Source: an uncultured Lachnospiraceae bacterium (GTDB taxonomy: Bacteria > Bacillota > Clostridia > Lachnospirales > Lachnospiraceae). From it: a stretch of DNA of 57,849 bases. Each line of letters begins with the position of its first letter. Position 1 is the stretch's first letter. Positions 7,866 to 57,849 of the stretch are shown here, in pieces. A program made the position numbers and the translations under genes. Below the pieces are notes generated by a model. The model did no database searches. It worked only from the letters and a program-made list of their open reading frames with translations, and was not told where the DNA came from. The DNA is taken from contig CANOMQ010000026.1 in NCBI GenBank assembly GCA_947567595.1, positions 1-57,849 on the forward strand. Reading direction: 5' to 3'.

Positions 7866-7881
7866 AATTATTCTTTCAAGT

Positions 7882-7907
7882 AAAAAAACGCCGTCTGGCG
7901 TTTTTTT
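7882..7907. terminator. Bidirectional intrinsic terminator
   Basis: Perfect stem AAAAAAACGCC / GGCGTTTTTTT with a 4-nt loop between two convergent genes. The minus-strand lipoprotein stop codon (7906-7908) sits inside the T-tract. Confidence 0.9.
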
Positions 7908-8322: not shown

Positions 8323-8344
8323 ATCGCCCTTCTACCCCTTAATA

Positions 8345-8746: not shown

Positions 8747-8799
8747 ATTTCCTCACATTCTGCCTATTAACGGCTGTTCACCTTTTTCTCAATATTCGT

Positions 8800-8828
8800 A
8801 TTATATGACGCAAAACGCCAATTTGCAA
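8800..8828 (-). promoter_or_regulatory. sigma-A promoter for the 133-aa gene and lipoprotein
   Basis: On the minus strand TTGCAA (8823-8828) and TATAAT (8800-8805) are 17 bp apart, about 55 bp upstream of the ATG at 8746. Confidence 0.75.
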
Positions 8829-9058
8829 TACCCTTTTACATATATAGTATAGTCCGTCTGCCGTTTTATTGTCAAGCATTTCGCAGTCCGCTTTTTTATC
8901 GCTTTTTTACCGCGTCGGCAATTGCTGCTGACAATTTTAAAAATTGGGTATTTATTTTTTTGCGGTTTTGTAGTACAATGGTTGCATGTGTCTATTATAT
9001 GACAAAAATAGATATGGCAAAAGGAAAAGAAACTATAAGAAGTAAGGTAGGTTTTGAT

Positions 9059-10378: not shown

Positions 10379-10393
10379 TATGATATTTATATT

Positions 10394-10434
10394 GAAAAAG
10401 GGAAACGTGTTTATTGCACGATTTCCCTTTTTTT
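10394..10434. terminator. Intrinsic terminator between convergent genes
   Basis: Stem AAAAAGGGAAA-CGTG / (G)CACG-ATTTCCCTTTTT with a short loop and T-tract, lying after the foldase gene and before the convergent LRR gene. Confidence 0.85.
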
Positions 10435-10452
10435 ATACACAAGTATAGGGAT

Positions 10453-11361: not shown

Positions 11362-11421
11362 AAGCAAACATCTACCTTTCCAAATATCAAACTGTATTTT
11401 ATCCTGCTGATTTTATCACTT

Positions 11422-22905: not shown

Positions 22906-23060
22906 TGCTCTTATCCTTCCAATCTGTCGTATATATGGCAAGCTTTGTTTATGCAATTATACAATTAAACAACAATCCATGCAACACGAAATGCAACATT
23001 ATCAAAAAATAACCGGAAAATTTCAAAAAGAAAAAGCCTAGAACCTCTAGGCTTTTCAAG

Positions 23061-23133
23061 AGCGATAGACGGGGCTCGAACCCGCGGTCTCGACCTTGGC
23101 AAGGTCGCGCGTTACCAACTACGCCACTATCGC
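23061..23133 (-). tRNA. tRNA-Gly(GCC)
   Basis: Cloverleaf of 73 nt on the minus strand. The acceptor is GCGATAG/CTATCGC, the anticodon loop TTGCCAA is closed by CGACC/GGTCG, and the T loop is GGTTCGAGCC. CCA is not encoded. It is the last of three tRNA-Gly genes. Confidence 0.93.
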
Positions 23134-23226
23134 ATTTGCTGTCTGTATCAGACCTTTATTATATTACATGATTTATCGGGTTTTGTCAACTGTTTTTCAA
23201 AAAATATCTGCAAAAACCGATACAAG

Positions 23227-23297
23227 AGCAGGATACGGGAGTCGAACCCGCCTCTTCAGCTTGGGAAGCTAACATACTACCGATGTACTAATCCTGC
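23227..23297 (-). tRNA. tRNA-Gly(CCC)
   Basis: Cloverleaf of 71 nt on the minus strand. The acceptor is GCAGGAT/ATCCTGC, the anticodon loop TTCCCAA is closed by TTAGC/GCTGA, and the T arm is GCGGGTTCGACTCCCGT. CCA is not encoded. Confidence 0.92.
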
Positions 23298-23346
23298 ATA
23301 ACAACAAAGTCATAACAAAAGCTTTACCCGCTTTCTTTCGGCCAAA

Positions 23347-23417
23347 AGCAGGTGATGGGAATCGAACCCACGTATCTAGCTTGGAAGGCTAGTGTTCTAC
23401 CATTGAACTACACCTGC
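23347..23417 (-). tRNA. tRNA-Gly(TCC)
   Basis: Cloverleaf of 71 nt on the minus strand. The acceptor is GCAGGTG/CACCTGC, the anticodon loop CTTCCAA is closed by CTAGC/GCTAG, and the T arm is GTGGGTTCGATTCCCAT. CCA is not encoded. It is first in transcription order. Confidence 0.93.
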
Positions 23418-40113: not shown

Positions 40114-41328
40114 ATGGCACTGATTTTATGTCCCGAATGTACACACACCATTTCAAACGTGACAGGCTTTTGCCCGAGCTGTGGCTATCCCTTAAAGGAC
40201 ACCCCCGCCAAACGGCGCAAGCTCCCAAACGGCACCGGAAGCGTCAAATGCCTCTCCGGCAATCGCTCCCGCAAATGGGCGGCGTATCCGCACGTCACCA
40301 GATTTTCCCAAAGCGGCTCCCCTATCCTTGAACCTGCAATCGGATATTTCAGAACCTATGAGGAAGCATATCAGGCACTCATTCTCTATAACGCCGCAGC
40401 ACCCGTAACGCCATTTTCAAGCAAAAGCACCGCAATCGGATTGCCGCCCGCAGCTTTGCCGCAATATCTGAACATGACGTTTGCCGAGCTTTATGAGCTT
40501 TATGAGCTTTATTACCATAATAAGTTCTGCAATTCCAAGAAAAAGTTTTCACGCGCCTCCGCCTACTCCAGCAAAGCGGCATTTAATAATTGCAAATCGC
40601 TGCATGGGAGAAAATTTTTGGAGCTGCGCAAGGCGGATTTGCAGGAAGTGATTGATAGCTGTCCGTTAAAGCACTCCAGCCTTGAGCTGATTGTTACACT
40701 TTTTAAGGGCATGTACACCTACGCGCTCCAAAATGACATGATAGAAAAGGATTATTCGAAATATGTGAGCATCAATATTGCTGACGATGATGAATGCGGC
40801 GTCCCGTTTTCGCAGGCAGCGCTTGAAACCCTTTGGAAAAATAAAAACCGTAAAAACGTTGGCATGGTTCTTTTGATGATTTATACGGGGTTTCGCATAT
40901 CCGCTTATAAAGATATCCGCTATGATAGGGAGGGGGAGTATTTTCAGGGTGGTGTCAAGACCGCGTCTGCGAAAAACAGGATTGTCCCGCTCCATCCTGC
41001 GGTTCGTGGCTTTGCGTTGAATTTTTTCAACAGGTTTCATTCGGAGGACGGGGAATGCTTTCATGCGCATAAGTGCCGAAAGGAATTTTATGAAGTGCTG
41101 AGTGCCTTAAATCTTACCTTTTCAGACAGTGGCACAAAACATACTCCCCACGACTGCCGTCATACTTTTTCATGGTTATGTGACAAATATAAAGTAGATG
41201 AATTGTCGAAGCATCTTCTTATGGGTCACTCTCTTGGAAGTGATATTGAGCGGTCTGTCTATGGGCATCGGACGCTTGATGAACTTCGTGCGGAAATTGC
41301 AAAAATTGAGGTGCCGCATTGTCGCTAA
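40114..41328 (+). CDS. Tyrosine recombinase/integrase with N-terminal zinc ribbon
   Basis: 404-aa recombinase. Residues 1-26 hold a CxxC-x10-CxxC zinc ribbon (C6, C9, C20, C23), followed by an SAM-like core-binding domain (about 115-215) and a catalytic domain. The catalytic residues are R261 (TGFRIS), a Lys near 287, H346/R349 (HTPHDCRHTF), H372 (LMGHS) and Y383 (SVYGH), all present. It should cut and rejoin DNA at specific sites. AGGAGG precedes the ATG. No excisionase, relaxase or phage genes are near, so it is an orphan or an element remnant. Four 11-bp repeats overlap its stop codon. Confidence 0.85.
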   Translation: MALILCPECTHTISNVTGFCPSCGYPLKDTPAKRRKLPNGTGSVKCLSGNRSRKWAAYPHVTRFSQSGSPILEPAIGYFRTYEEAYQALILYNAAAPVTPFSSKSTAIGLPPAALPQYLNMTFAELYELYELYYHNKFCNSKKKFSRASAYSSKAAFNNCKSLHGRKFLELRKADLQEVIDSCPLKHSSLELIVTLFKGMYTYALQNDMIEKDYSKYVSINIADDDECGVPFSQAALETLWKNKNRKNVGMVLLMIYTGFRISAYKDIRYDREGEYFQGGVKTASAKNRIVPLHPAVRGFALNFFNRFHSEDGECFHAHKCRKEFYEVLSALNLTFSDSGTKHTPHDCRHTFSWLCDKYKVDELSKHLLMGHSLGSDIERSVYGHRTLDELRAEIAKIEVPHCR

Positions 41329-41483: not shown

Positions 41484-42470
41484 TTATATTGAAACCGTCC
41501 AGTATTGCTTCATTAATTCCTCTGCCTCTTCTTCATTTTTATCAAATACTTCCATAATAGATTTTTTTACGTTCTCCCTGTCAGCTCCCATCTTTTGTGC
41601 AAATGTGATAGCACCCTCAAGTCTGCCTTCAAGTTTGCCTTCAAGTCTGCCTTCAAGTTTGCCTTCTTCCCTTATTTCCTGTATTGCAATGCACACATCA
41701 ACCGACTCCTTTCCTTCATCAATTCTCATATTGGAATGTGTTGCCACATTCATAATCTCAACTGCGTCTCTTTCTACGCTCTTAAAACGTTCCTGCTCAT
41801 GAACTACCCTGTTTAGCGCGTTTTTATCTTTCGAATATTCGATATAGCGCATAATTTCCCTCATGTTTGACTGAAATTCATCAATTTCTTCATCAGATAA
41901 TTCAAATGGTGCAATTAAGTTTAAACGATAATCCGCGGTATATCTTAAAATGTCCTCACTACAATCCGCATACATATCGCGCAAACTAAGCGGACCGTCC
42001 CATTGCTCCGCCCCAAAATATATCACTAACGTTACCACGGGCAAAAGCCTGTCATCTTTCCAAAAGCCGCTTAAGAACTCATCACCTGACGGTTTTTTAT
42101 TCTTTTGCTTAGACTTTTTATGAGAGGCTGCTGCCAGCGATACCTGATTTGCAAGCTGAAGTGCATCATAAAGGCAGTTTTTTACAGGCATTGCATAATG
42201 AATTTTCGCCTCATTTTCTACGGCAAGTATACAATAGGCGGCTCTTCCATCCGTCATAGACATCAGCATTTTAGCCACATCCCGATATCGCTGCTGCGGA
42301 ACTGCTGACTTATCTGAACCAAATGGAATTGCGATTTCCGTCGTATCAATTTCAACAAGATTCTCTGGCACTATGACCTGTTTTCCATGATATAAAAATT
42401 GATTAAATACATCCGCAAACACAAACGGACGCCTCATATATTTCTTTGCAAGGATGTCAAGCCTTCCCAT
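41484..42470 (-). CDS. Rpn-type recombination-promoting nuclease / PD-(D/E)XK transposase-like protein
   Basis: 328-aa protein of the Rpn (YhgA-like) group, PD-(D/E)XK nucleases that nick DNA and stimulate RecA-independent recombination. The start MGRLDILAKKYMRRPFVFAD, the motif YCILAVENEAKIHYAMPVK with the likely catalytic E-N-E, and LVIYFGAEQWDGPLSLRDM are typical. The C-terminal part carries EGKLEGRLEGKLEGRLEG, coded by four 12-nt repeats (41616-41663), which is slippage-prone but in frame. ATG 42470 is preferred over GTG 42482 because AGGTGG lies six bases before it. Confidence 0.78.
   Translation of the reverse strand: MGRLDILAKKYMRRPFVFADVFNQFLYHGKQVIVPENLVEIDTTEIAIPFGSDKSAVPQQRYRDVAKMLMSMTDGRAAYCILAVENEAKIHYAMPVKNCLYDALQLANQVSLAAASHKKSKQKNKKPSGDEFLSGFWKDDRLLPVVTLVIYFGAEQWDGPLSLRDMYADCSEDILRYTADYRLNLIAPFELSDEEIDEFQSNMREIMRYIEYSKDKNALNRVVHEQERFKSVERDAVEIMNVATHSNMRIDEGKESVDVCIAIQEIREEGKLEGRLEGKLEGRLEGAITFAQKMGADRENVKKSIMEVFDKNEEEAEELMKQYWTVSI
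41616..41663 (-). repeat. 12-nt tandem repeat inside the Rpn-type gene
   Basis: Four units of YTCAAGTYTGCC on the plus strand, coding for alternating LEG-R/K on the minus strand. Copy-number change would add or remove four residues without a frameshift. Confidence 0.75.
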
Positions 42471-42552
42471 ATATTCTGCCACCTACTATCTTTTGTAATT
42501 ACAATAATAATACCATATCATATGGAAAAACTCAATATTTGCAATTTTTATA

Positions 42553-42591
42553 TTAAGGCATCCTTAAGGACCCCTTAAGGCGCGCTTAAAA
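42553..42591 (+). promoter_or_regulatory. Phased TTAAGG direct repeats (response-regulator-like operator)
   Basis: TTAAGG at 42553, 42564 and 42575 and TTAAAA at 42586 are exactly 11 bp apart, the spacing used by OmpR/PhoP-family regulators. They lie about 100 bp before the start of the PL9-like surface gene. Confidence 0.55.
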
Positions 42592-42592
42592 T

Positions 42593-42636
42593 CTGAAAAG
42601 TTTATAAAAAATAATTAAAATTTTATAAACTTTCAG
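42593..42636 (+). promoter_or_regulatory. AT-rich palindrome upstream of the PL9-like gene
   Basis: CTGAAAAGTTTATAAAA and TTTTATAAACTTTCAG form a nearly perfect 16-bp inverted repeat with an 11-nt AT loop, 50 bp before the ATG. It may be a leader hairpin or an operator. Confidence 0.5.
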
Positions 42637-42685
42637 GTGCGTGGAAGTGCCAGCGTATGACTGCACAAGGGAGGAAGGCGAACGT

Positions 42686-44626
42686 ATGAGTAAATTGAAA
42701 AGCAAATTGGCACGGCGTATTATGGCAATCGTACTATCGGGCGCGATGGTGATGTCCAATATGTCTGCCTATGCTGCGGAACTCGCTCCAGAAACAGAGA
42801 CGGAAGTGATTGAGGCTGTTTCCGAGACAGAGGAAAGCGAAAACGACGTTGCGGACGATGCCGACAATAATGACGGCGATAATGATGCCATACTCAGTGA
42901 CCAAAAGGAAGCTGAAACTGGCAATTCGGACGAAACGAAAAACGATACTGACGATACAAACGGTGTGGGGGGCGATGAGGGTACCACAAATCCGCAGGAG
43001 ACGGTAGATGCTCCTACAGGTCTGAAAGCTGAAAAGGTAAGTGAAAATATCCAATTTTCATGGACACCGGTAACCAAAGATGGTTATAACATCAAGTATT
43101 CTGTCAGCTTAAAGGAAAAGGACGCAACTGATGCACAGGAAATGCTTAGTACAACGGAAACAGAAAGTACATCCGTAGATGTTGCCGCAACGGGATTCAC
43201 TGCGGAAAAAACATATACATTTAGCGTCAAAACAGTTGCGACAAAGACTGGGGATGATTCATCAGGAAGCACCCCAATAGAGTCAGACGAAGCTACTGTT
43301 GAGTATACCGCACCAAAAGAGGATGGCGGAGATGTGACTTTGAGTGCTCCGACAGAATTGAGGGCTGAATTGAACGACGCAAAAGATGCTGTTACGGTTT
43401 CATGGAAGGCTGTTGATAATGCAGAGTCTTATGAAGTTACAGCAAAAGAACAGGGTGAAGGCGCAACAGCGGAAATTAAGAAAACAGCCGACAACACAAC
43501 AAGCGTTACATTTTCTGTGAACGACACAGATGGTCTTTCACGTGGTAAAAGCTATAAATTCAGCGTAATTGCAAAAAAGGGTAGTGTATCGTCGGAGGAT
43601 GCAGCGGAAACCGAAAATGCACTTGCAATTCCAGAAGATTCGACAAATCCTGTAGAAGTGCAGACGTATAGTCTTAACCCCGCCGACGTGGAGACAGCTG
43701 CGGCAGGAAGTTTGGTTGAGAGTGGTGATCATGCGGCAAGAAACGGTGAAAAAGTTGGAACAAAAAAGAATGATGCTGGTTATTTCACGATGTGGTATAG
43801 TGCAAAGGCAAAAGTGGATACAAGCAGCAAGAGTTGGTCCGACCTTAATAATACACCGGGTGACGATGGAAAAATTCCAAGCATAAACCGCATTAACTTT
43901 GGCGGTAAAATGTCAGTCACAAGTGATAAAGCAGAAAATGCCATTGAATTTACAACAGAAAATCCGGCAAGTGTAACAATATGGTGGGCAGCAAACTATG
44001 CCGGTACAGACGGAGCTTCTAAATTCAGAAATATAGCCATTCAGAAAAAGGATGACAGTGGTAAAGGAACAACTGTGACACAAACAAATATTGGTACCTT
44101 TACTGAAAAAAACGCTCCATATAAGTCAACATTAAGATTAAGTGAGGCAGGTACTTATTATCTTGGTTCCCTAGTAGGCGGAAACTATATCTTTAAAGTA
44201 GAAGTTGCAGAGAGTGAAACTGCTGTTGCAAGGAAGGAATGGGGCGAGGTCGGCAATCCTGCAATAACTGTTGCATTAAAAACAACTACTACTACAGACA
44301 CAGAAGGAAACGAGGTAACTGAAACAGATAATACAACAGTTGTCGTAAAAGTAACAAATGCAGTGCTTGAAGACAACGGTGGCGATGTTCTGGCAGTTAC
44401 GATGACCAAAGATGGTGAAACCGAGCCTTTGGAATCAAAAAAAGATGCAGTATCAAGAACGGAATATGCCTATGAATTTAAACCAACAGAAACTGGCAAA
44501 TATCAGTTCAAGGCAGAATTAGCACGGCTGAATGAAAATGGTGAGGAAGAATCTCCAAAAAAGGAAAGCAGCACGGTTGCTTTTGATTTTACGATGCCAT
44601 TTTTACCTCCAGCAAATCTGAGGTAG
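42686..44626 (+). CDS. N-terminal part of a Fn3/CBM-like/PL9-type surface protein (truncated)
   Basis: 646-aa open frame, the first piece of a broken giant gene. The signal peptide is MSKLKSKLARRIMAIVLSGA then MVMSNMSAYA; an acidic linker, two Fn3 domains (VDAPTGLKAEKVSENIQFSW and LSAPTELRAELNDAKDAVTV) and a carbohydrate-binding-like beta sandwich follow. The sandwich has RINFGGKM, SVTIWWAANYAG and LRLSEAGTYYLGSLVGG. Then comes an Ig-like domain ending AFDFTMPF. In the minus-strand paralogue this is followed by another Fn3; here the frame runs into a stop at 44624-44626 and coding sense continues in another frame, so a deletion is likely. ATG 42686 follows GGGAGG. The product would be secreted but truncated. 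Confidence 0.75.
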   Translation: MSKLKSKLARRIMAIVLSGAMVMSNMSAYAAELAPETETEVIEAVSETEESENDVADDADNNDGDNDAILSDQKEAETGNSDETKNDTDDTNGVGGDEGTTNPQETVDAPTGLKAEKVSENIQFSWTPVTKDGYNIKYSVSLKEKDATDAQEMLSTTETESTSVDVAATGFTAEKTYTFSVKTVATKTGDDSSGSTPIESDEATVEYTAPKEDGGDVTLSAPTELRAELNDAKDAVTVSWKAVDNAESYEVTAKEQGEGATAEIKKTADNTTSVTFSVNDTDGLSRGKSYKFSVIAKKGSVSSEDAAETENALAIPEDSTNPVEVQTYSLNPADVETAAAGSLVESGDHAARNGEKVGTKKNDAGYFTMWYSAKAKVDTSSKSWSDLNNTPGDDGKIPSINRINFGGKMSVTSDKAENAIEFTTENPASVTIWWAANYAGTDGASKFRNIAIQKKDDSGKGTTVTQTNIGTFTEKNAPYKSTLRLSEAGTYYLGSLVGGNYIFKVEVAESETAVARKEWGEVGNPAITVALKTTTTTDTEGNEVTETDNTTVVVKVTNAVLEDNGGDVLAVTMTKDGETEPLESKKDAVSRTEYAYEFKPTETGKYQFKAELARLNENGEEESPKKESSTVAFDFTMPFLPPANLR

Positions 44627-44904
44627 AAGCAAAAACATACACAAAGCCTGAAGAAATTTGGGAAGATGGATATACAGGCGGCTATCGTATCAGCTTTGGA
44701 GGCACTGCGTCCAAAGAAATGAATGCTATTAAGTTTACTACTACGCAGGATGAAGCTACCATAAAATTATGGTGGAAAGCAGGAGGCGATGGCAGGCATG
44801 TACAGCTTCTTGATGAAAATGGAAACCAGTTGGAGGTATCAAAAGAAACATCCACGGCAAATACATCTTACATAACAAAATTTAAACTGACTCAAAAGGG
44901 AACT
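44605..44904 (+). pseudogene. Fragment 2 of the broken surface gene (CBM-like module middle)
   Basis: In frame 1, TSSKSEVEAKTYTKPEEIW leads to RISFGGTASKEMNAIKFTT and IKLWWKAGGDGRHVQLLDEN, ending KFKLTQKGTY. It matches the middle and end of the same beta-sandwich module seen in fragment 1. It has no start codon of its own with a ribosome site, and coding sense is lost at about 44905, where an inverted segment begins. Confidence 0.65.
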
Positions 44905-45057
44905 TATAATAATCATTCACATAAGACTCTGGCTGACCATCTGTCCATGTTCCTGCCGGTTTTGCTTCGGTATAGATTTTAGCACCATCAAGAACCGTGG
45001 TTTTCGCAACAGCGCCTGCTTCATAAGTATCCTCTATTGATGCGCTGATAAGCCATC
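44905..45057 (-). pseudogene. Inverted coding segment inside the broken surface gene
   Basis: Between two plus-strand coding stretches, the open frame lies on the minus strand: LISASIEDTYEAGAVAKTTV, then LDGAKIYTEAKPAGTWTDGQ and PESYVND. Its composition and pattern fit the start of a CBM-like module of this protein family, so the DNA appears turned round. The junctions lie near 44904 and 45057. I saw no long inverted repeats at the ends. It could be an inversion, a copy from a paralogue on the other strand, or a misassembly. Confidence 0.6.
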
Positions 45058-45882
45058 GTTGAAGCAGAATGGACAACAGTAAAGGAAGCTACAGGTTACA
45101 TTGTACGTGCTTATTCAGATAAGGAATGTACGCAAACGGTTGTTGAAAAGAAAACAGAGTGCGTATTTGAAGAAGATGGCAAGACAATTAAGGAAGCAGC
45201 TCCTACCAGTGCTATTGTGGATAGTCTTGAAGTAGGGCAGACGTATTATTTTGCTGCTGCAGCAATCCGCGGCGAAGAACAATCCGCTTTTTCTGCACCG
45301 CTTGAGAAAAAAATTTCCGAAGAGCAACAAAGCAAATTGGCATTTGCAGCATACGGATCTTCAACAAGTATCACAGCGACTACAAAGGATAAGGATCTCA
45401 ACACAATTCCGAAAAACGGCTATAGTGGTGACTTCTATGATGGAGAAGTGAAGGTATGGTCGATGGGCGGAGCAGGTAAAATTGTTCCTGATACGATAGA
45501 TGGACTCGCATTTTATTATACGGAAATTGATCCAAATACAACAAACTTTACATTAAAGGCTACTGCCCATGTAAATGAATGGTCATTGTCAAATGGACAG
45601 GATGGCTTTGGACTTATGGCGACTGACCAAGTGGGTGAGAATGGTAACGGCGACTACTTATGGACGAACTCATATCAGGCAGTTGTTTCTAAGATTGAAT
45701 ACAACTGGGATGGAGAGAAAGTTACAACCGATACTACAAAACCCAAGATTGCCATGAAAATCGGCGTGGGCGCAACAGAAAAAGTAGGAGCGACAAAAGA
45801 AGATATTGAGCAAATTACTGCTGGTAAAATTACGAAACCTAATGTATGGTCGGCTTGCATACAGGAATGGTTATGTACTTAA
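45058..45882 (+). pseudogene. Fragment 3: Fn3 plus PL9-associated N-terminal domain
   Basis: The open frame starts VEAEWTTVKEATGYIVRAYS (an Fn3 domain) and continues with EVKVWSMGGAGKIVPDTIDG, FYYTEIDPNTTNFTLKATAH, SLSNGQDGFGLMATDQVGEN and IGVGATEKVG. This is the beta-sandwich that precedes the beta-helix in the minus-strand copy (VRVWSLGTYGKIVPNSTDGV there). Coding sense ends at about 45850, and the frame stops at 45882 after a deletion that removed the start of the beta-helix. It has no plausible start codon. Confidence 0.65.
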
Positions 45883-48241
45883 GAACAGCGATGGCGAACT
45901 TGATATTGCGGGCGAGCTGACAAATGCAGGTAACGGTAACGGCTTTAAGATGGGTGGTGATGGTCTTCCCGGAGGAAGCATATATGATCCGGATTATGAC
46001 AAAGAAAACAACGTTTTCTCAGGCCATAAGCTGAAAAATTCAGTTGCCTTTGAAAATAAATCAAAGGGATTTGACTCAAATAGCTGTTCAAACAATAAGG
46101 TAAGCAATTCCATTTCATTTAATAATGAAAGCTCAAACGTTGCTTTATATAGCTATAGTACAACAAAAACAACCGGATATGAGACACAAAATGTTATTTC
46201 TTTTAGAACAAAAGATACAGGTGTTGCTGATGAAATTTCAGCTAAGAATCAAAACAAACAGGATTATGAAAACAGCACAACATATCTTTGGGATGGTGCT
46301 AAACAACAGGCTGTAAACAGCGACGGAAAAGCCGTGGATGCTGGTTGGTTTGAATCACTGGAATTTAAAGCAGGAAAAACACCTTACAGTGATAAAGACG
46401 TAAACGGAGTACTTTTAGGCAGAAACAGCAATGGTACGATTGATATGGGAGGATTCCTTGTGTTAAAGCCGGATGCTGGCGTAGGCAATACAGGTCTTGG
46501 TGCAGGGCAAGGTTCCACAGGGAATGATGCACTGACAGAAGGAAGCATAGATACGGATGGAAGTATTTCTTCGGGGGATGTTACTATTACTGATAGTACC
46601 ACATCATCGGAGATTGCCAAGGAAGAGAATGATGTAAGCTCTGAACTTAGCAAGGATAAAAATTATGGTATTTATGTTAAATATCTTGAGGAAGTATCAT
46701 ATACCGGTACTGCTGTTAAACCGGAGTTCAGGGTATACTTAAACGGTGTGGCTTTTACGGATTATAAGGTAACTTATAAAAATAATGTAAATGCGTATGT
46801 GGAAGGAAACAAGAGATACGAGAATATTCCCGATGCAAAGAGACCTACATTAGTTCTTACATTGAAGGGTTCATATCAGGGTACATATGAGTATTACTTT
46901 GATATCAAGCCTGTTGATATTAATACCGTATCTGTATCCGGCTTAAGTGGATTAGCTGATGGAAGGGCAAAGAAAATTGCACCTACGTTAATTTACAATG
47001 GTAAAAAACTTACAGCAGACAAGGATTATACCGTAACATCTGCTGACTCTCAGTATACAGAAGCAGGCGAATATCCTGTAAAAATTGATGCAACAGAATG
47101 TAAAAGCGGAAACTTCACAGGTACGATAGAGAAGAAATTTATTCTCTTAAGCGAAGGTGAAGATATCAGCAAGATAAATCCTTGCAGCTTTACATCCGGT
47201 AATATTACAGCGAAGTCTGTAACTGATGTATTTACAAATGGAAAGCAAACCATTAAGCCTTCCGAATTAGAAAAGTCAAAGGTTGTTGTTACAAATGTCA
47301 ATAAAGTTCTTGCAAAGAAACGTGATTATACACTTCTTTATGAGTATGACTTAACTGTACCTTCCGAAGATGGAAAGACAGTGACAACACAGACCGTAAC
47401 ATACGAGCCACAAAATCCTTCCGATAAGGAGAAAGGAAGCACACCTATTGAGATACCTAAAGAAACAGGTCTTAATGTAAGAGTGTACGCTAAACCTGTT
47501 GATGGCGGAAACTTTAGTCCTATAAAGGATGCAAAGGGATTGCAGATCGCTGAATTCAGAGTAGCTTACTATAATATTGCACAGGCAAAGCTTCAGGTAG
47601 TGGATAAGGCAATCTATGAGTCAGAAAAGAAAGTAAAGACTACACCGTTGTATTTTGTTGATGATACGGAGACGCAGAAAGCGAACTTAGGTGCACTAAA
47701 CAGATTAAACAATTATACAACAAACGCAAATAAAGATGCGCCTTACTACATTATGCTGACACATCCTGCAATGGAAAATGAAACAAAGCAGCTTTCATTT
47801 GGCAGCTATGAAAACAGGGATTCTTTGGATCAGAAAGACCAATATACATATGACTATGAAAATACAGCAACAACAGTTGCCGGAAAGCATAGCGTAACAT
47901 TGTATGGTACAGGTATGTTTGGAGGTACAAGAGTATTTAAGTATAATCTTGTAAAGAAAACTTATGATTTAAAGAAACTTATTGTGGATATGAAGACTGT
48001 TGAAGCTCCGGCATTAAATCCCAGTGCGACAAAGGATGTAAATGATGCAGCTATCAAGGCTAAGCTTGAAGGTAAGATTATTATTAACGGAAACATACTA
48101 AAAACGGAATATATCAAATTAAACTATGATGCATCAACAATTCAGAGTGGAAAAGCACTCAAAGTTACCATTACAGGTGATGAAGTAAATGGCATTAAGG
48201 TTTATTCAGGCTTTAAAACAATTAGCATTAAGGTACAGTAA
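45806..48241 (+). pseudogene. Fragment 4: PL9 beta-helix end and C-terminal Ig-like repeats
   Basis: Genuine coding sense begins at about 45851 (LAYRNGYVLKNSDG). GNGNGFKMGG carries the PL9 catalytic-type Lys (45947-45949). NSVAFENKSKGFDSNSC and SISFNNESSNVALYS are beta-helix coils. After a Gly-rich linker, several Ig/MBG-like domains follow (VSYTGTAVKPEFRVYLNG, YKVTYKNN, TLVLTLKGSYQGTYEYYFDI and similar) to the natural end TISIKVQ. The calcium-binding coils that precede GNGFKMGG in intact PL9 enzymes are missing. A terminator follows directly. Confidence 0.7.
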
Positions 48242-48253
48242 GTATTTGGCACA

Positions 48254-48287
48254 AAAAGAAGGAGCAGGTAAAACCGCTCCTTCTTTT
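48254..48287. terminator. Intrinsic terminator between convergent genes
   Basis: Twelve-bp stem AAAAGAAGGAGC / GCTCCTTCTTTT with a 10-nt loop, 12 bp after the stop of the plus-strand surface gene. Confidence 0.9.
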
Positions 48288-48334
48288 CTATATAATATGC
48301 ATTATAAATTACCTCCGCACGAACAAATTATCTA

Positions 48335-49903
48335 TCATACAGAAATTCTCTCTATCACACAACAATGAGATTTATTCTCCTTAAAGTAACTAATACCAAC
48401 CAATAGAACTTCACCCTTATAACCTTCCAGTGCCTGTGCATATTTTCTGTCCTTTATCTGTTGGATTGCCGTATCAGCAGTTTTATCATATTTTAATTCA
48501 ACAATCAGTGCCGGTTTATTTGTATGTGGAAGCGGCAGGAATACCACATCCGCAAATCCCCGTCCCGCAGGCAGTTCACGAATTATTTTGTAATCCTTTC
48601 TTGCACTATAATACGCAAGTCCGATAGCACATCCAAGGGAATTTTCGTCATTATAGGTCAGTATGGAGGCAACCTCCGTATGCGCCCTGTCTAGTGCTTC
48701 GGCGACATTCTGTTCGTTGCCACTTAAGGTGTCTTCAAGCAGTTTTTCTGATGCCTTCAAGACACGCATAACCTCCGCCCAGCCGCCGTTGCTCATGGCG
48801 TTTTCAAATTCTTTGATGATTTCCTTGTTGGGAATGAATGCCTCTTCCCTTTCAGCATCATAGGCAAGATATCCCAAATGAATTAGCAGTGTCAGGACAT
48901 CATTCTTTGTGTTGAAATTGCGCATATCGTTTTGAAAGCTGAACGTGTTCACCTGAATGCGCCCGCCGCCGAGCATGTGCACAATGTCCGCCCGTAGTCC
49001 GTCAAAGTCCATATCAATATATCGTTTCAACGCTTCATAAGTTTCCGTGGAGCTCCAGTAACTTGAAAACTTATGGCGACGCATCGACTCAGCTACCGAT
49101 TTTGGATTATAAACATGTTGGAATTCCATAAACCTATAGCCGTCATACCAACTGCTTGTTTCCGTAAAACTCATTTGAAACCGCCTACATAATGTTTTCA
49201 CATCTTCTTCGGTAAAGCCCGTATATTCCTCCAAAACATCCTGATCCGTCATCGAATATTCCGTAAACATATTCAACGCAGAGTGAACCCCGTACTTTTT
49301 CACAGGCAAAATTCCTGTCATATAAGCGAGCGCGACATATGGCTGATCCTTTAAAAGATTCCGTAGAAAGTCAAGGTACTGTTTTTGCATCTCTTCCGAA
49401 TCCTGTCGTTCCCGCATCACACTGTCCCACTCGTCTATCAGGAAAATAAATTCTCGTTCTGTTTTTGTATAGATCCTTCGCAGTGCAGCCGCAAGCCCGG
49501 TATCCTGAATCCTTAGGACTTCCCCATATGCCTCCCGAAGCTCATCCAATACTTCCTGCTCCAAATACTGCGTCACGCGTTCTTCCTCTGCCTCAATCAA
49601 AAACTGTTGCATATTTAGGTAAATCACGTCATACCGGTTCAAATACTCTAAAAAAGTCTCATCCTGCGCAATCTGAAATTTCTGAAACAGCTCTGCGGAA
49701 TCACAGCCGCGACTGTAATACGCAGCAAGCATTTTGAGCGCCATCGATTTTCCAAAGCGGCGCGGTCTGCTGACACAGATAAATTTCTGCTCTGTATCCA
49801 AATACTTGTTTGTATACTTAATTAATCCTGTTTTATCCACATAAATTTCAGAGCGGATTGCTGTCAAAAAGCCTTTGTTATTCGGATTCAGATAAAATCC
49901 CAT
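48335..49903 (-). CDS. AAA-ATPase-like protein with C-terminal PD-(D/E)XK nuclease domain (DUF1703 type)
   Basis: 522-aa protein. The N-terminal AAA-like domain has VDKTGLIKYTNKYLDTEQKF, a Walker A-like SRPRRFGKSMALKML and Walker B EFIFLIDEWDSVM. The C-terminal PDDEXK_9 domain has GFADVVFLPL and ALIVELKYDKTADTAIQQIK with the D-ExK core. These proteins are common, often multi-copy, in gut Clostridia and Bacteroidetes; their role is unknown, and a mobile or defence link has been suggested. ATG 49903 follows GGAGG. It lies between the two convergent giant surface genes. Confidence 0.82.
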   Translation of the reverse strand: MGFYLNPNNKGFLTAIRSEIYVDKTGLIKYTNKYLDTEQKFICVSRPRRFGKSMALKMLAAYYSRGCDSAELFQKFQIAQDETFLEYLNRYDVIYLNMQQFLIEAEEERVTQYLEQEVLDELREAYGEVLRIQDTGLAAALRRIYTKTEREFIFLIDEWDSVMRERQDSEEMQKQYLDFLRNLLKDQPYVALAYMTGILPVKKYGVHSALNMFTEYSMTDQDVLEEYTGFTEEDVKTLCRRFQMSFTETSSWYDGYRFMEFQHVYNPKSVAESMRRHKFSSYWSSTETYEALKRYIDMDFDGLRADIVHMLGGGRIQVNTFSFQNDMRNFNTKNDVLTLLIHLGYLAYDAEREEAFIPNKEIIKEFENAMSNGGWAEVMRVLKASEKLLEDTLSGNEQNVAEALDRAHTEVASILTYNDENSLGCAIGLAYYSARKDYKIIRELPAGRGFADVVFLPLPHTNKPALIVELKYDKTADTAIQQIKDRKYAQALEGYKGEVLLVGISYFKENKSHCCVIERISV

Positions 49904-50010
49904 ACATTTCCTCCTTGCTCTGACTGTCACAAGTCTGTTATACCAACATCCAATAAATTAAATCTAGTATATCATGTACATTACGTAATTATCAATACAT
50001 TTTATAAACG

Positions 50011-50056
50011 GGAAACACCCGCAGAAAACCAAGTGCCCAAAGGCATAGGTTTCTGT
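50011..50056 (-). terminator. Intrinsic terminator of the minus-strand surface gene
   Basis: AAACACCCACAGAAACC pairs with GGTTTTCTGCGGGTGTTT around a small inner GCC/GGC hairpin, about 20 bp after the stop at 50075. Confidence 0.75.
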
Positions 50057-50074
50057 GGGTGTTTTCTGTTTGTT

Positions 50075-50872
50075 TTACTTCGCCAAAGACAAAGCAATAC
50101 CTTCATTCATTATAGAAATCAGCTCCTGTGAAACAACCGCATTTTGAGATTGTGTCGGCTGTGTCCACCAGAAGAAGTCCTGTGCGCCAATCTTAAAGGT
50201 AATTACCTTCTGCTCAACGTATTCTCCCTGACCTTCGATAATAAGCTTTGCAGTTCCCTTTCGGTCATTCTTGCTGTACGAAACAACCTTGTAATCTTTA
50301 CCAAATACAAGTGTTTTTTCTTCACTGCCTTCCTTTAAGGTTACTGTAAGTGTATCTTCATTCAAGGTAACTGTGCCGCCTTCTTTGTAATAGAAATACT
50401 TATTTTCAAATCCCGGATTATTCACCGGATCCTTGTCATAATTAATTACAAACTTTGCACTCTTGATAGAGTTCTTACCGTAGGCGATGCGATAGTACGC
50501 AGATAATGTATCCTCTGTATAGTTCTCGCCCGCTCCCTTTAGCGTAACCTTTACGGTATAATAAGTATTCTTGTCAGGAATGCGCAGCTCTGACCTATTA
50601 TCGGTAATCGGTTCTGCTGCATTTTTGTCTTCCAGTACTTTGTATGTCTTGTTATCAACATACTCATATTTGAAAATGGTATAATCCTTGTTTAGACTAA
50701 GTGTCTTACCCTTTGCATCCTTTACAACAATTTTTGTGTTATTCTTGCCTACAAAACCATTTTCATTATTTCTATCTTTGGATGTAAGCTTCACATCTGT
50801 CGCAGTAATCTGAAGCTTGTTCTCCGGATCGTTAAACGGTCTCTTTGCAATCTTGTAGGTTCCGGTAAGTGT
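50075..50872 (-). pseudogene. C-terminal fragment of the minus-strand surface gene
   Basis: Open coding sense from GTLTGTYKIAKRPFNDPENK to the end IMNEGIALSLAK. It holds Ig/MBG-like repeats (TVKVTLKGAGENYTEDTLSA, AKFVINYDKDP, YVEQKVITFKIG). No start or ribosome site lies at its beginning; it is out of frame with the previous piece, which ends GKDYTISSKAP at 50878. About 10-20 residues seem to have been lost at the joint. There is no LPXTG or SLH domain. Confidence 0.7.
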
Positions 50873-50877
50873 TCCTG

Positions 50878-51415
50878 TTAGGGAGCCTTTGAGCTAATTG
50901 TGTAGTCTTTTCCCGGTCTCATCAGGTTGCCGTTAACTCTAAGTGATATAGAAGGCTTCGCTCCGGATTTGTCATAGTATACGACATTCTTCATCATACC
51001 ATAGTTCATCGTATTTTTGCCGCCGTCGCTTGGCTTGCCGTCAAAATACTTCGATGTCTTATCTTCATTCAGCGTGAATGTTCCGCTGAGCTTCTCTGTA
51101 TTTGTGCCTGCACTGATGTCAAATGCCTCAATCTTAAATGTCTGTGTAATTGTTCCGGTATAATTGCCCTTTCCTTTTACTACAACACTTGCAGAACCAG
51201 CTTTATTGTTGCCTCTGTAAGAAAGGACGTAATCCTTGTTGCTTGTGAGTCTGTACCATGTGCCACCTATGTCTGCCGCTACCCCAAGCTCATCCCATAC
51301 AATTGCCTTTCCTTGATAATCGTAGGTAGGATTGAACGTAAATTCAACGCCATCCATCTTAGTAATTACACCAGTCTCTTTGTTGTAGTTTGCAGCTTCA
51401 CCCGCGCTGATAAGC
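50878..51415 (-). pseudogene. Middle fragment of the minus-strand surface gene (Ig/MBG-like repeats)
   Basis: Coding sense runs from NTSKLISAGEAANYNKETGV through GVEFTFNPTYDYQGKAIVWD and GSASVVVKGKGNYTGTITQT to GKDYTISSKAP and a stop. It is frameshifted from both neighbours by small deletions. The first joint (near 51415) comes where the upstream frame reads GTATAIIN and the usual strand GxxYxGxxxxxFKI is missing. Confidence 0.7.
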
Positions 51416-51424
51416 TTTGAAGTA

Positions 51425-54400
51425 TTAATTTATAATTGCTGTTGCCGTACCGATTTCAATGTTGTTGACATATTCTATTGTAATGTCGCCTTCTTTGGTT
51501 TCCGGATTGTAAAGCTTCAGCTCGCCACCAGTCTTTGTCTTTACATTTGCTGCAGTAAGCGGCTCTACCGGCAGATATTTTATAATCTTTCCAGTGTAAT
51601 CTGTTACATATCCTTTGCGGTACTGCGGCTCAATTTTATCTACCTTAAAGCTGCTTGCAAGATTTTCCTTAGGAGCAGTTGAGCCATCGCGTACTTCAAT
51701 CATGATTGTTCCTGCGAAATTGCCCTTTCCAGTAACCTTCATATATTCCTTGCCGTTCTCTTCCTTTTGGAGTGTTGCATCCGCAGTAAAATCTTTCGAG
51801 TCAGAAAGCTTCTTACCCATAAAGGTAATAACCGGCTTTGCTGCCTGATTTGCTTTAAGCAGCGTGATTGTAGGTGCACTGACTCTGTTTTGGTCGTCAT
51901 TCCCTAAATCAACAGGCTTTATCTCAAAATAGATATCCTTTGCCTGACCAATATAGTTGCCTTTTCCTTTTACAATAATGGTAGGTATTTTCTTCGTATC
52001 CGATTCGTATTCAGAACCAGCCGCAGGAGTACCCTTGTCTGTATCGCCAAGCCAAGCATTTAGCGTATTCTTGTACGTAACCGTATAGTCCTTCTTGGTC
52101 AATAATGTATTGTCATAGTATACTCGGATCTCCGGTTTTAAAGCTTTGCCTGTATAACCGATTTCGTCCTCATTCACAATTGAGAACCACAGTCCGACCT
52201 GATCCTTTGAGCTGCCCGGCTTTTTATTTAAATCGTCCGCATCAATGTTGCTGTCTGTTTCGTCGTCCGCATCACCCTTCTGAATCGTACCGTCTGTCTC
52301 TTCCACGCCGTCAAAATCCGTCGGGTTTTTCGAAACAACATCGTTTGTATTGCTGTCAGCGAGATTCGGAAGACCACTGCCTGTGATTCCGGCTTCTGCC
52401 GTAAGCTGTAAGAAGTTCCCTACATTAATTGTGCCATTTGCATTTCTCTCCACAACATAAGGCTTTCCTTCTGCAATACTCTTGTTCTGCAGATTTGTAA
52501 ACCAGCCATTCTCTCCGTCAAAGGCAACACTTCCAAACCAAGTATCTTTTACAATACCGTCGTGGTTACATGTCAAATCTTCTTCGTTGCCTCTTGTAGT
52601 GTAATGCTGTACAAAGTCTGTTGCATTTTCTGTTACACCGCTATAGCGGTTAAAGAAGTAGTTTGTATTGTTGAAGACCTTGCTCATGCCCTTTGGCTGT
52701 GTTGTTGTGATATTGGAAACCTTATTCGGTGCTGTACCCGTAAGTTCTCCGATACGGTCTTCCCAATTTTTATTTCTAAGGTCCTCAGGTTTGCCTGTTC
52801 TGTAAGAAATCACGCCTCTTGCTGCATAGTCTGTTGTCGAACCCTTGGTGTAGAATGCAATGTTATAGCTTTCGTTATTAAAGGTAATCGAATTATATAC
52901 CTGTATATCCGGACAGCTATTTGAGTCAAAGCCCTTTGCCTTATTATAGAATGCAAGTGATCCCTTCAAGGTATGGTAGCCGCTGAGAGAGCTTCCTCCC
53001 ATCTTGAAGCCGTTACCGTTACCTGCGCTTACTTCCTGGAAGTCAAATACCGGTCTCTTGCCTTCTGCGGGATCGGGAAACATATGAATCATCTTATCCT
53101 TTGTACCATTCGCGCCTCTTTCGATTCTTATGGTCTTTGAGAGATCATAGTTCTCACCCATCAGATAAATCGTCTGTCCCGACTGTACGTATCTCACTGC
53201 CGTGTAAATATCAAGCGGGTTATTCTTTGTACCATCACCTGTTGCCTTGCCTAGTGGTGCAACATATAGTGCCTGACCTTCTTGACCGTATTTCTTGTAT
53301 GTTACGGTAATTAACTCTGTCTTTGCGGTATAATCCTCCAAACGTGTCAGCGGATCACCGTCATAGGGATCATAATTCTCGTCCGGTTCAAAGGTTGTCT
53401 GGAACGTGTTATTGCCGGTATTCAGTGTAACCTGAAGCTCTGCTTTATCTGTTTCCTCCGGAGTTCCATCAATCTGAATATAGTAGTTTCCGCTCGCATC
53501 CTGCTTGCGCTTATTGATAGAAACCGCTTTGTCAGAAATGTCAGCGCCGTTCTCATCCTTTACATATAATTTTCCATGCCAGTTTGCCTCATATGTCAAT
53601 AGATACTCGTCGCTGTTTGATGTTGCCGCTGAAACAATCGAATAGTTCGGTTTCACATACTCTACTTCTTTTTCTTCCGGATGTGCGTTTTCTGCGTCAT
53701 ACGCTGTTTGATTAAATTCTATGTTGCTGAATGTAACCATTGCATTTCTTGACGCGAAGAATCCGGCATATATAGAACCCGTGTCAATCTTGCTTAAAGC
53801 ATTTCTGTCATAATACTTGTTTGTAACCTTTGTACCTACTTCCGTGACTTCACGTGTTTCCTGATTTACCGTAATCGGTGTATAGCTTACAAAATAACCT
53901 GTGTCGTTGAGTGCAATTTCCAGTCTTAAATCCGTTATAGGATTTTCGATTGACGCAGCATCACCGGGGTTTGTCATGTTGCCAATCAGGTTGTCAAATG
54001 ATTTGTCGTGCATCTGCGTGTCAAGCGGTTTTGAAGCAGTCTTAAAATACTTTTTCGTAGCATCCGCAACGGTAGCGTTATTCTTAAATTCGCTAATGTT
54101 TTCTGCTGTAACACCTGTTCTTGCAATGGACTCAATTCCCAGTTTCAGGGATACAGCGGAACCTGTATTGGATACCTTCTTGTTCTCATCATCCCATTTG
54201 TACTCTGTCTTTGATACAATTGCCATATAAGAGTTGTTCCAAACGTCTCCGCCTTCATAGCTTGCATCATCACTGCTGTCAGAAGGTGACGCACCAACCT
54301 GATCGAATACCGCTAAACCAAAACCTTCCTGACCATTTGAAAGTGTCCACTGGTCTACGTGCATATCAGCACTTAGCGTAAAGTTGTAGGTTGACGGATC

Positions 54401-57400
54401 AACCGTGGTGTAGTAGAACGAAACACCGTCAGTAGAGTTCGGTACAATCTTACCATAGGTTCCAAGAGACCATACTCTGACTTTCGTAGGATTTCCGTTC
54501 TCATCCGTTTTCAGGACTTTGTAGTCATTTCTCTTCATGTCCTTTGCGGTTGTATTAATATCGGCAAGTTTTTGTCCCTTTGTCTCGGAATCAGGATCCG
54601 TATCAATCAGGGAATCATCGCTGCATCCCGCCGGAACCTTGTCAGCCTTGCTAATCAAGCCTCTATTTGCTCTTGAACCAAAGTTTGCATAATTCCAAGT
54701 CTCTTTATTTTTACCAGATACTTCAAATTCCAAAGCTGCAGTTGCTGACCACTCATCGCCTTCGCCATATTCTGGCTCTTTGCCATCTTCGCCAACAGCT
54801 TTTGCGCGTACTGCTGTAACTTCAAGGGTATACTTTGACCCCACTGCAAGACCTTCTACGCCTTGTGCCCAACCGCCGTTTTCTTCTTTTTCACCGATTG
54901 TTACAAGGTTTGTCTTTGCAATTTTGTCGTATATAATGGTGCCTGCGTTGTCTTTAATTACTACTTTATAGACCGCCTCGGCTACTTTCGTCCATACCGC
55001 CTCTATTTTGCCGTAGTTTGTGCCTTCTACGGTACCTTTGTCCGTGACACTCTTGATTGCCACATTTCCTAAAGGAAGCTTGAACTCAACGGACTTGCGG
55101 ATATCTTTGCCTTCCGCGTCCGTATCCACGCTGTCAATTGTCGTTTCTTCGCCGTCACGCGCCATCTTTGCGCTGAAATAGTATGTGTTTGAGCTTTCCG
55201 GCGTAAACTCAAATGTGTGTTCTTTTCCTTCCATGACAGAGGCTGCATAACTTGCAGTCTGCTCTTTGCCTTCTGCGTCTTTGTATGTCATGTAAACGGT
55301 TACGCTGTCAGCAGATGCCTCCATACCAATGTCAGCAGTTACTTTTACAGTAATTTTGCCGCCTTCTTGTACAGCACTTGTGATTTCGGGAGCTTTTACA
55401 TTCTCCTTGCCTTCAACAGGCTCGGTTGTCCATTGAGGACGTTCTTTCTTTTCATAGCCATCGTATACAACAACTCGGGTGATACGAACCTTACCTTTAA
55501 CCTGTCCAAGGTAATATGTTCCAGCATCATCCATAAAGAACGATGTCATTAAAAGTCCGGCATTTGTTGTGTCATTTGTTGTATCACTTGTTTTGGAGCC
55601 AATCTGCTTTCCTTTTGCATCTACAATCTGTATACCATTTCCGGCAGTGTTTGTACGCCAGTATACATCTACACGTGATGCAGCGCTTGTCTTAAACTTA
55701 ATTGCAGTGCTTGTAGGAGCGCTTCCTTCTGCAATTCCGTTACTGCCAAGCTCCAGCCTGCTTGATGTAACAAAGTTATTTGGATAAATTTTTCTGTTGT
55801 CCGTGTTTACCTGACCGCCGCTGCCAATCATAAGCGTGAAATAGGTTGAATCCCCAAAATCTTTTAACAAATCCAATGTAGCTGTAACGGCAGCATCCAA
55901 TACATCACTGCTTACTTCATTACCATCACCATCTACATTCATGCCATTCACTTTAACGTATGTTTGTGGTTGGATATCCGGTGCGCCCTGATCCGCAGAA
56001 TACTTTCCTGTTTTTATAACAGAATTTGCTGCAGGTCTTGGGGACATAGCATAAAGCATTCCTGCATCCAAAATATATTTGCCTTTTTCAAAGCTATCCG
56101 CTTTTTCATTAATTGCCAAATCGTGTGTGCCCTTAGCGGATTCTTCTGTTTCGCCGTTTGCGCCTGTATAATTTCGGAACGCAGTAACGCCGAAACGATA
56201 TGTTTTTCCGATTACAAGCCCTTCCTTAATTGTCAAAGAGGTACTTGTTATCTTTCCAGAATGAAATGCTTCTACCGGCTTGCCCTCAGCATTAACGACT
56301 TCATTGCCTTCCCCGTCTAATTCAACTGCTGTTAAAATGTAGCCGTCAGCCTCGTCAACGGTGTTCCATGCTATTTCTACTGATCCGCTCTTGGGATCTG
56401 AGCCCTCCACTTCGCCCAAATTGACATAGTCTATAATTGTAGGCGCTTTTAGCGGAAGGGTGAACGTGAGCGCTGGTGTTTTTTCACTCTTCTTTTCTTT
56501 AATGGCTTCGCCTTCTACTGTACGCGAAAGCACTGCATCAAATTGATAACGTGATGTATAGGTTGGTGAGAATGTAAATTTATGCTCATTTCCTTTTGTA
56601 TCATCTTCCTGTGCCTTGCCAACCTCATTGCCAGCCATGTCGTACATGTGTACGGTTACTTTGTCAGTAGAGTCGCTTATCTGTGCATTTACTGTTACTG
56701 CAATTTTACCTGTACGTGATGCGTCATCGTATTCTGCTTTGACTGTTGGTTTTTCTATAGCCTCCCAATCTGTCGGACCTTCCGGTTCCGCTTTTTCCAT
56801 TGTTACAATAATCTTAAAGATATGGACACTTTCAACTGTCGTTAGCTCATAAGTTCCTTTTTCGCCCAGTGAAAATTCCGAATAATATGCTGCAGCTTTC
56901 TTTCCGTCTGGTAAGGTTATTTTTTCGATTTCCGTTGACGTGTCTTTATCCTTAAATAGTGCTAACCCACGTGGTTTTTCTGCTGTTGCATCTCCTGACA
57001 GTGCCCAAAATACCTTAACTTCCGCAGTCCCTGATGTTTCAAACTCGATATATCTTGAGGTCAGTTTTTTATCAGTACCGGCTTTATAGGATCCATTAAA
57101 ATTAATTCCTTTTAGCCCTGTAAGTGCAGATGGTTTAAACTGCTCTGAAACACTGCTTGCATTTACAGGAGTCCATTCCGTTGCTGTTATACTTTCTGTG
57201 GTATCGACTATTTTGCCTTTGTCACCATAGCTTATTGTAAAGATATCTTCTTTTTGTGTTGCTCCATTTGCTTTGGTTTCCGCTGCCCAGCCCGTAGCAT
57301 CGAGAATGTAATCTACAGTATCTCCTATTACAACTTCTTCAATTGTCACATCAGCAGTTTTGCTATCTTCGCTTAATGATTCCCCGCTTGTGCTCTTAAT

Positions 57401-57849
57401 TGTAAAGGTATAGGTTTTACCTGCCGCAAAGCTTGTTGCATTGTTTTCGCCATATCCTGTAGCGGTGTATGTGACTGTAGTCTTATCGTCTATAGAATAG
57501 GTTGCTAAAACTTCTGCCGCATCCTTTTCTGATACTGTAATCTGATATCCGTCTCCACCATTTACAATGTCCCAATCAAGCTTTACTTCATATTTGTTAG
57601 TAACCTGCTGTGCCGTAAAAGTCTCCGGCGCATTTGCAGATAAACTAACTGTTACAGACTCACTTTCATTTGTCTTCTGATTGGCTGTATCATCCTTATT
57701 TGTTGCTGTTTTGTTTGTATCATCATAGTCTCCGGCAATGGTTCTTGTCAGTGTTGCTTTTGCCTTATAGCTGCCGGAATCCGTAATTTGGTAGTCATAG
57801 CTGTATGATGTAATGCCTTGTTCCCTTATTACTTTTGTGTCTACAGGCT
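51425..57849 (-). CDS. Giant Fn3/CBM-like/PL9-type surface protein (partial, runs off the window)
   Basis: At least 2141 codons, open to the right edge, so the true start lies outside; a GTG at 57349 is not a real start. In order: Fn3, CBM-like sandwich, Ig-like domain, Fn3, second CBM-like sandwich (AIKFKTSAASRVDVYWRT, FFMDDAGTYYLGQVKGK), Ig-like, Fn3, PL9-associated sandwich (VRVWSLGTYGKIVPNSTDGV). Then comes the beta-helix start (LYVAPLGKATGDGTKNNPLD, GQTIYLMGENYDLSKTIRIE). FDFQ then joins directly to EVSAGNGNGFKMGG with the catalytic-type Lys (53003-53005), so the calcium-binding coils are absent. Ig/MBG-like repeats follow to 51425, where the frame breaks. Without the deletion it would be a secreted PL9 pectate lyase. 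Confidence 0.75.
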   Translation of the reverse strand, partial: PVDTKVIREQGITSYSYDYQITDSGSYKAKATLTRTIAGDYDDTNKTATNKDDTANQKTNESESVTVSLSANAPETFTAQQVTNKYEVKLDWDIVNGGDGYQITVSEKDAAEVLATYSIDDKTTVTYTATGYGENNATSFAAGKTYTFTIKSTSGESLSEDSKTADVTIEEVVIGDTVDYILDATGWAAETKANGATQKEDIFTISYGDKGKIVDTTESITATEWTPVNASSVSEQFKPSALTGLKGINFNGSYKAGTDKKLTSRYIEFETSGTAEVKVFWALSGDATAEKPRGLALFKDKDTSTEIEKITLPDGKKAAAYYSEFSLGEKGTYELTTVESVHIFKIIVTMEKAEPEGPTDWEAIEKPTVKAEYDDASRTGKIAVTVNAQISDSTDKVTVHMYDMAGNEVGKAQEDDTKGNEHKFTFSPTYTSRYQFDAVLSRTVEGEAIKEKKSEKTPALTFTLPLKAPTIIDYVNLGEVEGSDPKSGSVEIAWNTVDEADGYILTAVELDGEGNEVVNAEGKPVEAFHSGKITSTSLTIKEGLVIGKTYRFGVTAFRNYTGANGETEESAKGTHDLAINEKADSFEKGKYILDAGMLYAMSPRPAANSVIKTGKYSADQGAPDIQPQTYVKVNGMNVDGDGNEVSSDVLDAAVTATLDLLKDFGDSTYFTLMIGSGGQVNTDNRKIYPNNFVTSSRLELGSNGIAEGSAPTSTAIKFKTSAASRVDVYWRTNTAGNGIQIVDAKGKQIGSKTSDTTNDTTNAGLLMTSFFMDDAGTYYLGQVKGKVRITRVVVYDGYEKKERPQWTTEPVEGKENVKAPEITSAVQEGGKITVKVTADIGMEASADSVTVYMTYKDAEGKEQTASYAASVMEGKEHTFEFTPESSNTYYFSAKMARDGEETTIDSVDTDAEGKDIRKSVEFKLPLGNVAIKSVTDKGTVEGTNYGKIEAVWTKVAEAVYKVVIKDNAGTIIYDKIAKTNLVTIGEKEENGGWAQGVEGLAVGSKYTLEVTAVRAKAVGEDGKEPEYGEGDEWSATAALEFEVSGKNKETWNYANFGSRANRGLISKADKVPAGCSDDSLIDTDPDSETKGQKLADINTTAKDMKRNDYKVLKTDENGNPTKVRVWSLGTYGKIVPNSTDGVSFYYTTVDPSTYNFTLSADMHVDQWTLSNGQEGFGLAVFDQVGASPSDSSDDASYEGGDVWNNSYMAIVSKTEYKWDDENKKVSNTGSAVSLKLGIESIARTGVTAENISEFKNNATVADATKKYFKTASKPLDTQMHDKSFDNLIGNMTNPGDAASIENPITDLRLEIALNDTGYFVSYTPITVNQETREVTEVGTKVTNKYYDRNALSKIDTGSIYAGFFASRNAMVTFSNIEFNQTAYDAENAHPEEKEVEYVKPNYSIVSAATSNSDEYLLTYEANWHGKLYVKDENGADISDKAVSINKRKQDASGNYYIQIDGTPEETDKAELQVTLNTGNNTFQTTFEPDENYDPYDGDPLTRLEDYTAKTELITVTYKKYGQEGQALYVAPLGKATGDGTKNNPLDIYTAVRYVQSGQTIYLMGENYDLSKTIRIERGANGTKDKMIHMFPDPAEGKRPVFDFQEVSAGNGNGFKMGGSSLSGYHTLKGSLAFYNKAKGFDSNSCPDIQVYNSITFNNESYNIAFYTKGSTTDYAARGVISYRTGKPEDLRNKNWEDRIGELTGTAPNKVSNITTTQPKGMSKVFNNTNYFFNRYSGVTENATDFVQHYTTRGNEEDLTCNHDGIVKDTWFGSVAFDGENGWFTNLQNKSIAEGKPYVVERNANGTINVGNFLQLTAEAGITGSGLPNLADSNTNDVVSKNPTDFDGVEETDGTIQKGDADDETDSNIDADDLNKKPGSSKDQVGLWFSIVNEDEIGYTGKALKPEIRVYYDNTLLTKKDYTVTYKNTLNAWLGDTDKGTPAAGSEYESDTKKIPTIIVKGKGNYIGQAKDIYFEIKPVDLGNDDQNRVSAPTITLLKANQAAKPVITFMGKKLSDSKDFTADATLQKEENGKEYMKVTGKGNFAGTIMIEVRDGSTAPKENLASSFKVDKIEPQYRKGYVTDYTGKIIKYLPVEPLTAANVKTKTGGELKLYNPETKEGDITIEYVNNIEIGTATAIIN

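Follow-up and report, generated by a model that had tools for sequence, protein, structure and literature searches.

Introduction

In the PL9 enzyme Pel9A (PDB 1RU4), calcium is bound by Asp209, Asp233 and Asp237, and Lys273 is the base. These residues, which the initial annotation of this DNA had also named, are given in the available part of PMC10992409, where Asp234, a further ligand named in that annotation, does not appear; the equivalent residues of another PL9 enzyme are given in the available part of PMC6627557. According to the accessible portion of PMC7111523, local errors in metagenome assemblies lead to incomplete or incorrect protein-coding genes, the frames of metaSPAdes may be chimeric, and contig ends in IDBA-UD and metaSPAdes assemblies often overlap by as many bases as the longest word has, or by one base fewer.

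Here, we explored two neighboring PL9-like genes in which the lysine motif is kept and the calcium-binding core is missing. We consider it probable that they consist of pieces of two ordinary giant PL9 genes that were wrongly joined in assembly.

Two Convergent Giant Genes at a Contig End

The window, that is, the whole stretch of 57,849 nucleotides analyzed here, is an entire contig (C26) of a genome of 4.16 Mb in 99 contigs. Two convergent giant genes lie at its right end, with an AAA-ATPase_like/PDDEXK_9 gene between them. The plus copy spans 42686-48241 and the minus copy 57849-50075. The features are as follows.

42686..44611, plus strand: 5' part of the plus giant gene, with leader peptide, Fn3 domains and sandwich domain in one open frame (ORF 42641-44626; fn3 E 3e-17; leader 97% like the leader on C74 of the same genome)
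44612..44907, plus strand: piece B, in a different frame, 55% like residues 786-890 of a giant PL9 protein of L044 (blastx)
44906..45052, minus strand: piece A, reversed, with 44906-45022 resembling residues 749-787 of the same L044 protein (blastx) and a presumed limit at 45052
45058..45857, plus strand: Fn3 and PL9-associated sandwich, with an out-of-frame junction at the end (blastx)
45857..48241, plus strand: 3' part of the PL9 gene, from LAYRNGYVL via GNGFKMGG to the C-terminal repeats, core absent (ORF 45806-48241; no match in the Pfam search)
48335..49930, minus strand: AAA-ATPase_like and PDDEXK_9 gene, open (Pfam E 1.9e-29 and 3.2e-8)
50075..50890, minus strand: C-terminal piece of the minus copy past the last frame break, about 22 residues short relative to L047
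50893..51425, minus strand: middle C-terminal piece of the minus copy in a shifted frame; a small indel could account for the break at about 51425
51425..53035, minus strand: minus copy from EVSAGNGNGFKMGG on
53035..53036, minus strand: in-frame junction at which the PL9 core is gone (149-174 residues; alignment with 8 homologues)
53036..57849, minus strand: upstream part of the minus copy, with Fn3, sandwich domains and pre-core domain, leaving the contig (open ORF 51425-57847; fn3 E 1.4e-6)

Both copies keep the PL9 catalytic-lysine motif (GNGFK-GG), as GNGFKMGG at 45935 in the plus copy and at 53017 in the minus copy. The stretches that hold the calcium ligands Asp209, Asp233 and Asp237 (ADGF- and DDGWD-type) are missing from both: ADG[FY]A and DDG[WYF]D were absent from all three frames of each copy. 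Stretches of the ADG and DDG types were both found in 12 other ORFs that were compared. The arrangement described in the initial annotation, two convergent copies with the motif and without the core stretches, is thus confirmed. It had taken each copy for a single gene, which does not hold. As assembled, neither copy is a single open gene, and further breaks occur at about 44611, at 44907-45058, at 51425 and at 50890. The contig terminates within the minus gene, whose copy in the window has no start codon.

The start-codon regions of several giant genes are near-identical (41-50 exact bases) between window positions 42647-42696 and the ends of C6, C74 and C95. This suggests that leaders have recently been duplicated or have undergone gene conversion. 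AAA-ATPase_like/PDDEXK_9 genes are interspersed with the giants (window 48335-49930, L008 828-2411 and L048 281-3572) and are 73-78% alike in DNA. A tandem pair of them on C95 is 88% alike, with one exact stretch of 314 bases, and next to the giant PL9 gene of L044 there is a partial match (residues 10-276).

An open frame of 404 residues at 40114-41328, upstream of the plus copy, contains a zinc ribbon and weakly matches a phage integrase (E 0.005). The window also holds a 1968-residue open frame at 16101-22007 that encodes bacterial Ig-like domains (Big_13 E 5.6e-14), and three tRNA-Gly genes in a row at 23060-23417 (anticodons gcc, ccc and tcc).

How Each Copy Is Broken

In the minus copy, FDFQ is joined to EVSAGNGNGFKMGG, just as the initial annotation had read it, and the flanks FDFQ and EVSAGNGNGF align cleanly with 8 homologous segments. 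The loss at 53035 is in frame; it amounts to 149 residues relative to five of the eight homologues, and to 151, 158 and 174 residues relative to the others. Downstream, the frame shifts at about 51425 and at 50893/50890. About 22 residues are gone at 50893/50890 in comparison with L047, and at about 51425 there are 119 bases against 153 in L047 and 74 against 87 in L081. The break at about 51425 fits a small indel, so the set of lesions is not purely one of block joins.

In the plus copy, the first frame stops near 44611 and the frame jumps there. The left and right homologies share 22 bases at 44590-44611, but this overlap is undecisive because over-extended alignments may contribute to it and a deletion in the cell could produce an equal one. 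Piece B then follows in forward orientation and piece A after it in reverse, whereas in the L044 homologue A immediately precedes B. The flanks of this A/B block are 11-13 residues apart in seven homologues (L040-L043, the 3621-12410 copy of L044, L046 and L047). Therefore, the block is either an extra domain unit with missing parts or foreign to the site. Near 45857, the sandwich (KPNVWSA) passes to LAYRNGYVL with a change of frame; this jump had been noticed earlier as one from the PL9-associated sandwich to AYRNGYV. The loss takes in the end of the sandwich and the pre-core domain, and its size is 426 residues relative to L040, 427 to L041, 441 to L042, 485 to the second copy of L044 and 540 to C6.

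The initial annotation had held that the same part was lost twice. We found that the minus copy lost 149-174 residues in frame and the plus copy 426-540 residues out of frame; since the core alone is common to both losses, this is not one loss repeated. The post-motif sub-types also differ, the plus copy being like C6 and the minus copy like C74. These results bear on a collapse of cores identical in both copies, a reading that would explain why both lack the core. It is extremely improbable, because the left boundaries lie hundreds of residues apart, the sub-types differ and the two copies share no exact 21-base word. Collapse of an identical repeat was accordingly rejected, as no exact 21-base repeat occurs in the region.

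The breaks delimit seven stretches, and none of their 4,380 codons is a stop. Five or more of the junctions are block joins, and no more than one is a small lesion.

The Core in Relatives

We retrieved relatives by alignment of the post-core part, using the best 80 of 413 confirmed relatives; the genus-level search with this part gave matches in 12 of 38 genomes. Because the post-core part was the query, the loci were not selected for the core. The core was scored as present when a DDG-type stretch lay at most 300 residues upstream in the same frame. Among the matches listed, the core was in frame at 103 of the 105 distinct GNGFK-GG places, and the exceptions were the two window copies, a pattern that goes beyond chance. 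In this count, places were merged only if their 180-base neighborhoods were identical, and a place at a locus edge may count twice.

Frame-changing block breaks were found, over 92 queries with at least seven places doubled, in the two window copies and at one further place (L045/L095). None was seen in the 11 loci titled with a strain name, among the matches listed. The L045/L095 copy belongs to a MAG with a k141-prefixed contig name and keeps its core motifs intact despite the block break. Its break (L045 6191-6310) covers about 425 residues upstream of the PL9 part. The viral contigs, searched with two short stretches adjoining the motifs, gave no match to either.

A natural class of core-less pectin binders was rejected on the basis of the 103 of 105 listed places that have the core. 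Non-catalytic pectin binding, one of two possibilities given in the initial annotation, is not supported by the copies themselves, the plus copy being out of frame before the motif and the minus copy after it. A narrower version concerns the minus copy, which might be a working non-catalytic pectin binder whose calcium core was lost by a clean in-frame deletion. The in-frame junction, the conserved flanks and the retained lysine motif would suit it. However, the protein would be shortened by the frame breaks at about 51425 and 50890, no core-less relative exists in the 103 other places among the matches listed, and the neighboring plus copy is out of frame. We regard this version as very unlikely. 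It is slightly less credible still that the minus copy is an expressed, pectin-binding-only PL9 derivative from which exactly the calcium and active-site coils have gone without a change of frame; it would then represent a first core-less branch of the family. The pattern of breakage, in the draft genome of a gut-type bacterium, points to assembly error or recent gene damage and not to a new kind of protein.

Wrong Joins or Real Breaks

Other PL9 genes of the same genome are the core-bearing giants on C74 and C6 and a small gene on C10. An orphan PL9 core was sought in the genome and was not found.

Several contig ends may carry a trace of the assembly process. The ends of C95 and C6 have exactly 55 bases in common, and a 55-base stretch at the end of C74 recurs unchanged inside the same contig. 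Such overlaps fit a short-read de Bruijn-graph assembly, an assembler type that we infer from the overlap length only. For the end of C26, which lies inside the minus gene, the rest of the genome offers no good counterpart, the best being a match of 16 bases. The ends of C74, C75 and C84 (L008 1-54, L197 1-52 and the 3' end of L198) share 52-54 bases, and their genes are unrelated. We considered this shared end as a chimeric join and dropped it, so that it is not counted as evidence. Because three unrelated genes end there, it is likelier to be the end of a mobile element, which probably interrupts a leader-bearing gene at the end of C74.

The most likely explanation is that both window genes are ordinary giant surface genes of the PL9 pectate-lyase type with multiple domains, resembling the core-bearing copies on C6 and C74. 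Their proteins would be secreted surface enzymes, judging from the leader, the domains and the family. The loss of the core, the frame jumps and the reversed fragment would be wrong joins of short pieces in a de Bruijn graph with a word length of about 55, and they presumably arose in the assembler rather than in the cell. With related large genes and genes for ATPases so close together, the site would be hard to assemble. Wrong joins are the most likely reading because there are at least five block junctions and at most one small lesion, 4,380 codons are free of stops, and order and orientation are scrambled. The core at 103 of the 105 listed places, the scarcity of block breaks over the 92 queries, the 55-base overlaps, the contig end within the minus gene and the absence of an orphan core from the genome search also speak for them. 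The idea of an assembly error in the initial annotation therefore stands in its general form, though not proven, and its more specific form, collapsed repeats, falls for the want of an exact 21-base repeat and the different sub-types.

Some observations speak against wrong joins. The joins contain no N, a letter that is also absent from the rest of the window and from 167,106 bases of other stretches of the same genome. Within the window, positions 42001-57849, and with them the joins, take part in no exact repeat of 21 bases in either orientation. The minus junction is in frame with cleanly aligned flanks, the break at about 51425 fits a small indel, and block breaks are uncommon among the other copies from MAGs too (one place). 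We also considered a general assembly failure on giant genes. Ten matches were obtained with the leader search, and seven of them are open frames of 2068-3330 residues, two of which are weak matches (E 0.01 and 0.5). The other three are the window plus copy (665 residues), a C74 gene cut by the contig end (201) and a C15 gene (780; E 0.2). Since the seven other giants with similar leaders are open, assembly does not fail on such genes generally, and this candidate was rejected.

The breaks could instead be real, in recent pseudogenes or in deleted variants present in part of the population, with function kept by C6, C74 and C10. The route would be deletions at short repeats together with template switching. 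This is the main alternative, possible but less likely. It is in keeping with the joins without N, the seven open large genes, the 22-base overlap as a possible trace of a short-repeat deletion, the possible small indel at about 51425, the persistence of core-bearing copies in the genome, and the apparent mobile-element end that seems to interrupt another family gene on C74. However, gene decay of this kind would have left no more than one small lesion beside five or more block junctions, with 4,380 codons still open, and the reversed, out-of-order piece demands several template switches. Moreover, both neighbors are hit, yet the relatives are open save at one other place.

Significance and Comparison with Known Systems

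If wrong joins are the cause, a naive reading of this contig would place two false core-less pectate lyases in databases. A practical check is offered by the combination of several breaks of the block type and almost no small lesions, pieces in scrambled order, and a contig-end overlap that equals the word length. If the breaks are real, the locus would illustrate how large surface genes can be rearranged fast.

The situation would resemble the local errors in MAGs described in the available part of PMC7111523, which yield incomplete or incorrect genes. With Pel9A (1RU4), the window copies share the motif GNGNGFK-GG with its catalytic lysine, but unlike Pel9A they have no calcium-ligand stretch. 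As a yardstick, the core-bearing C74 copy matches Pel9A with an E value of 3.4e-29 across core and motif. The Pfam model PF22842 (Pel9A-like beta-helix) matched neither the window copies nor the core-bearing giants of C74, C6 and L044; among these and the small C10 copy, the latter alone was matched (E 2.5e-13).

Core-bearing proteins of relatives in the genus differ from Pel9A in their repeated domains and in their length, about 1800-3250 residues or more. The PL9 segment is 46-55% identical to that of seven relatives and 39% identical to that of the C74 copy of the same genome. The giant PL9 genes L040-L047 of the same genus have the same domain order as the window copies. Unlike the window copies, they all keep the core, and all except L045 are open.
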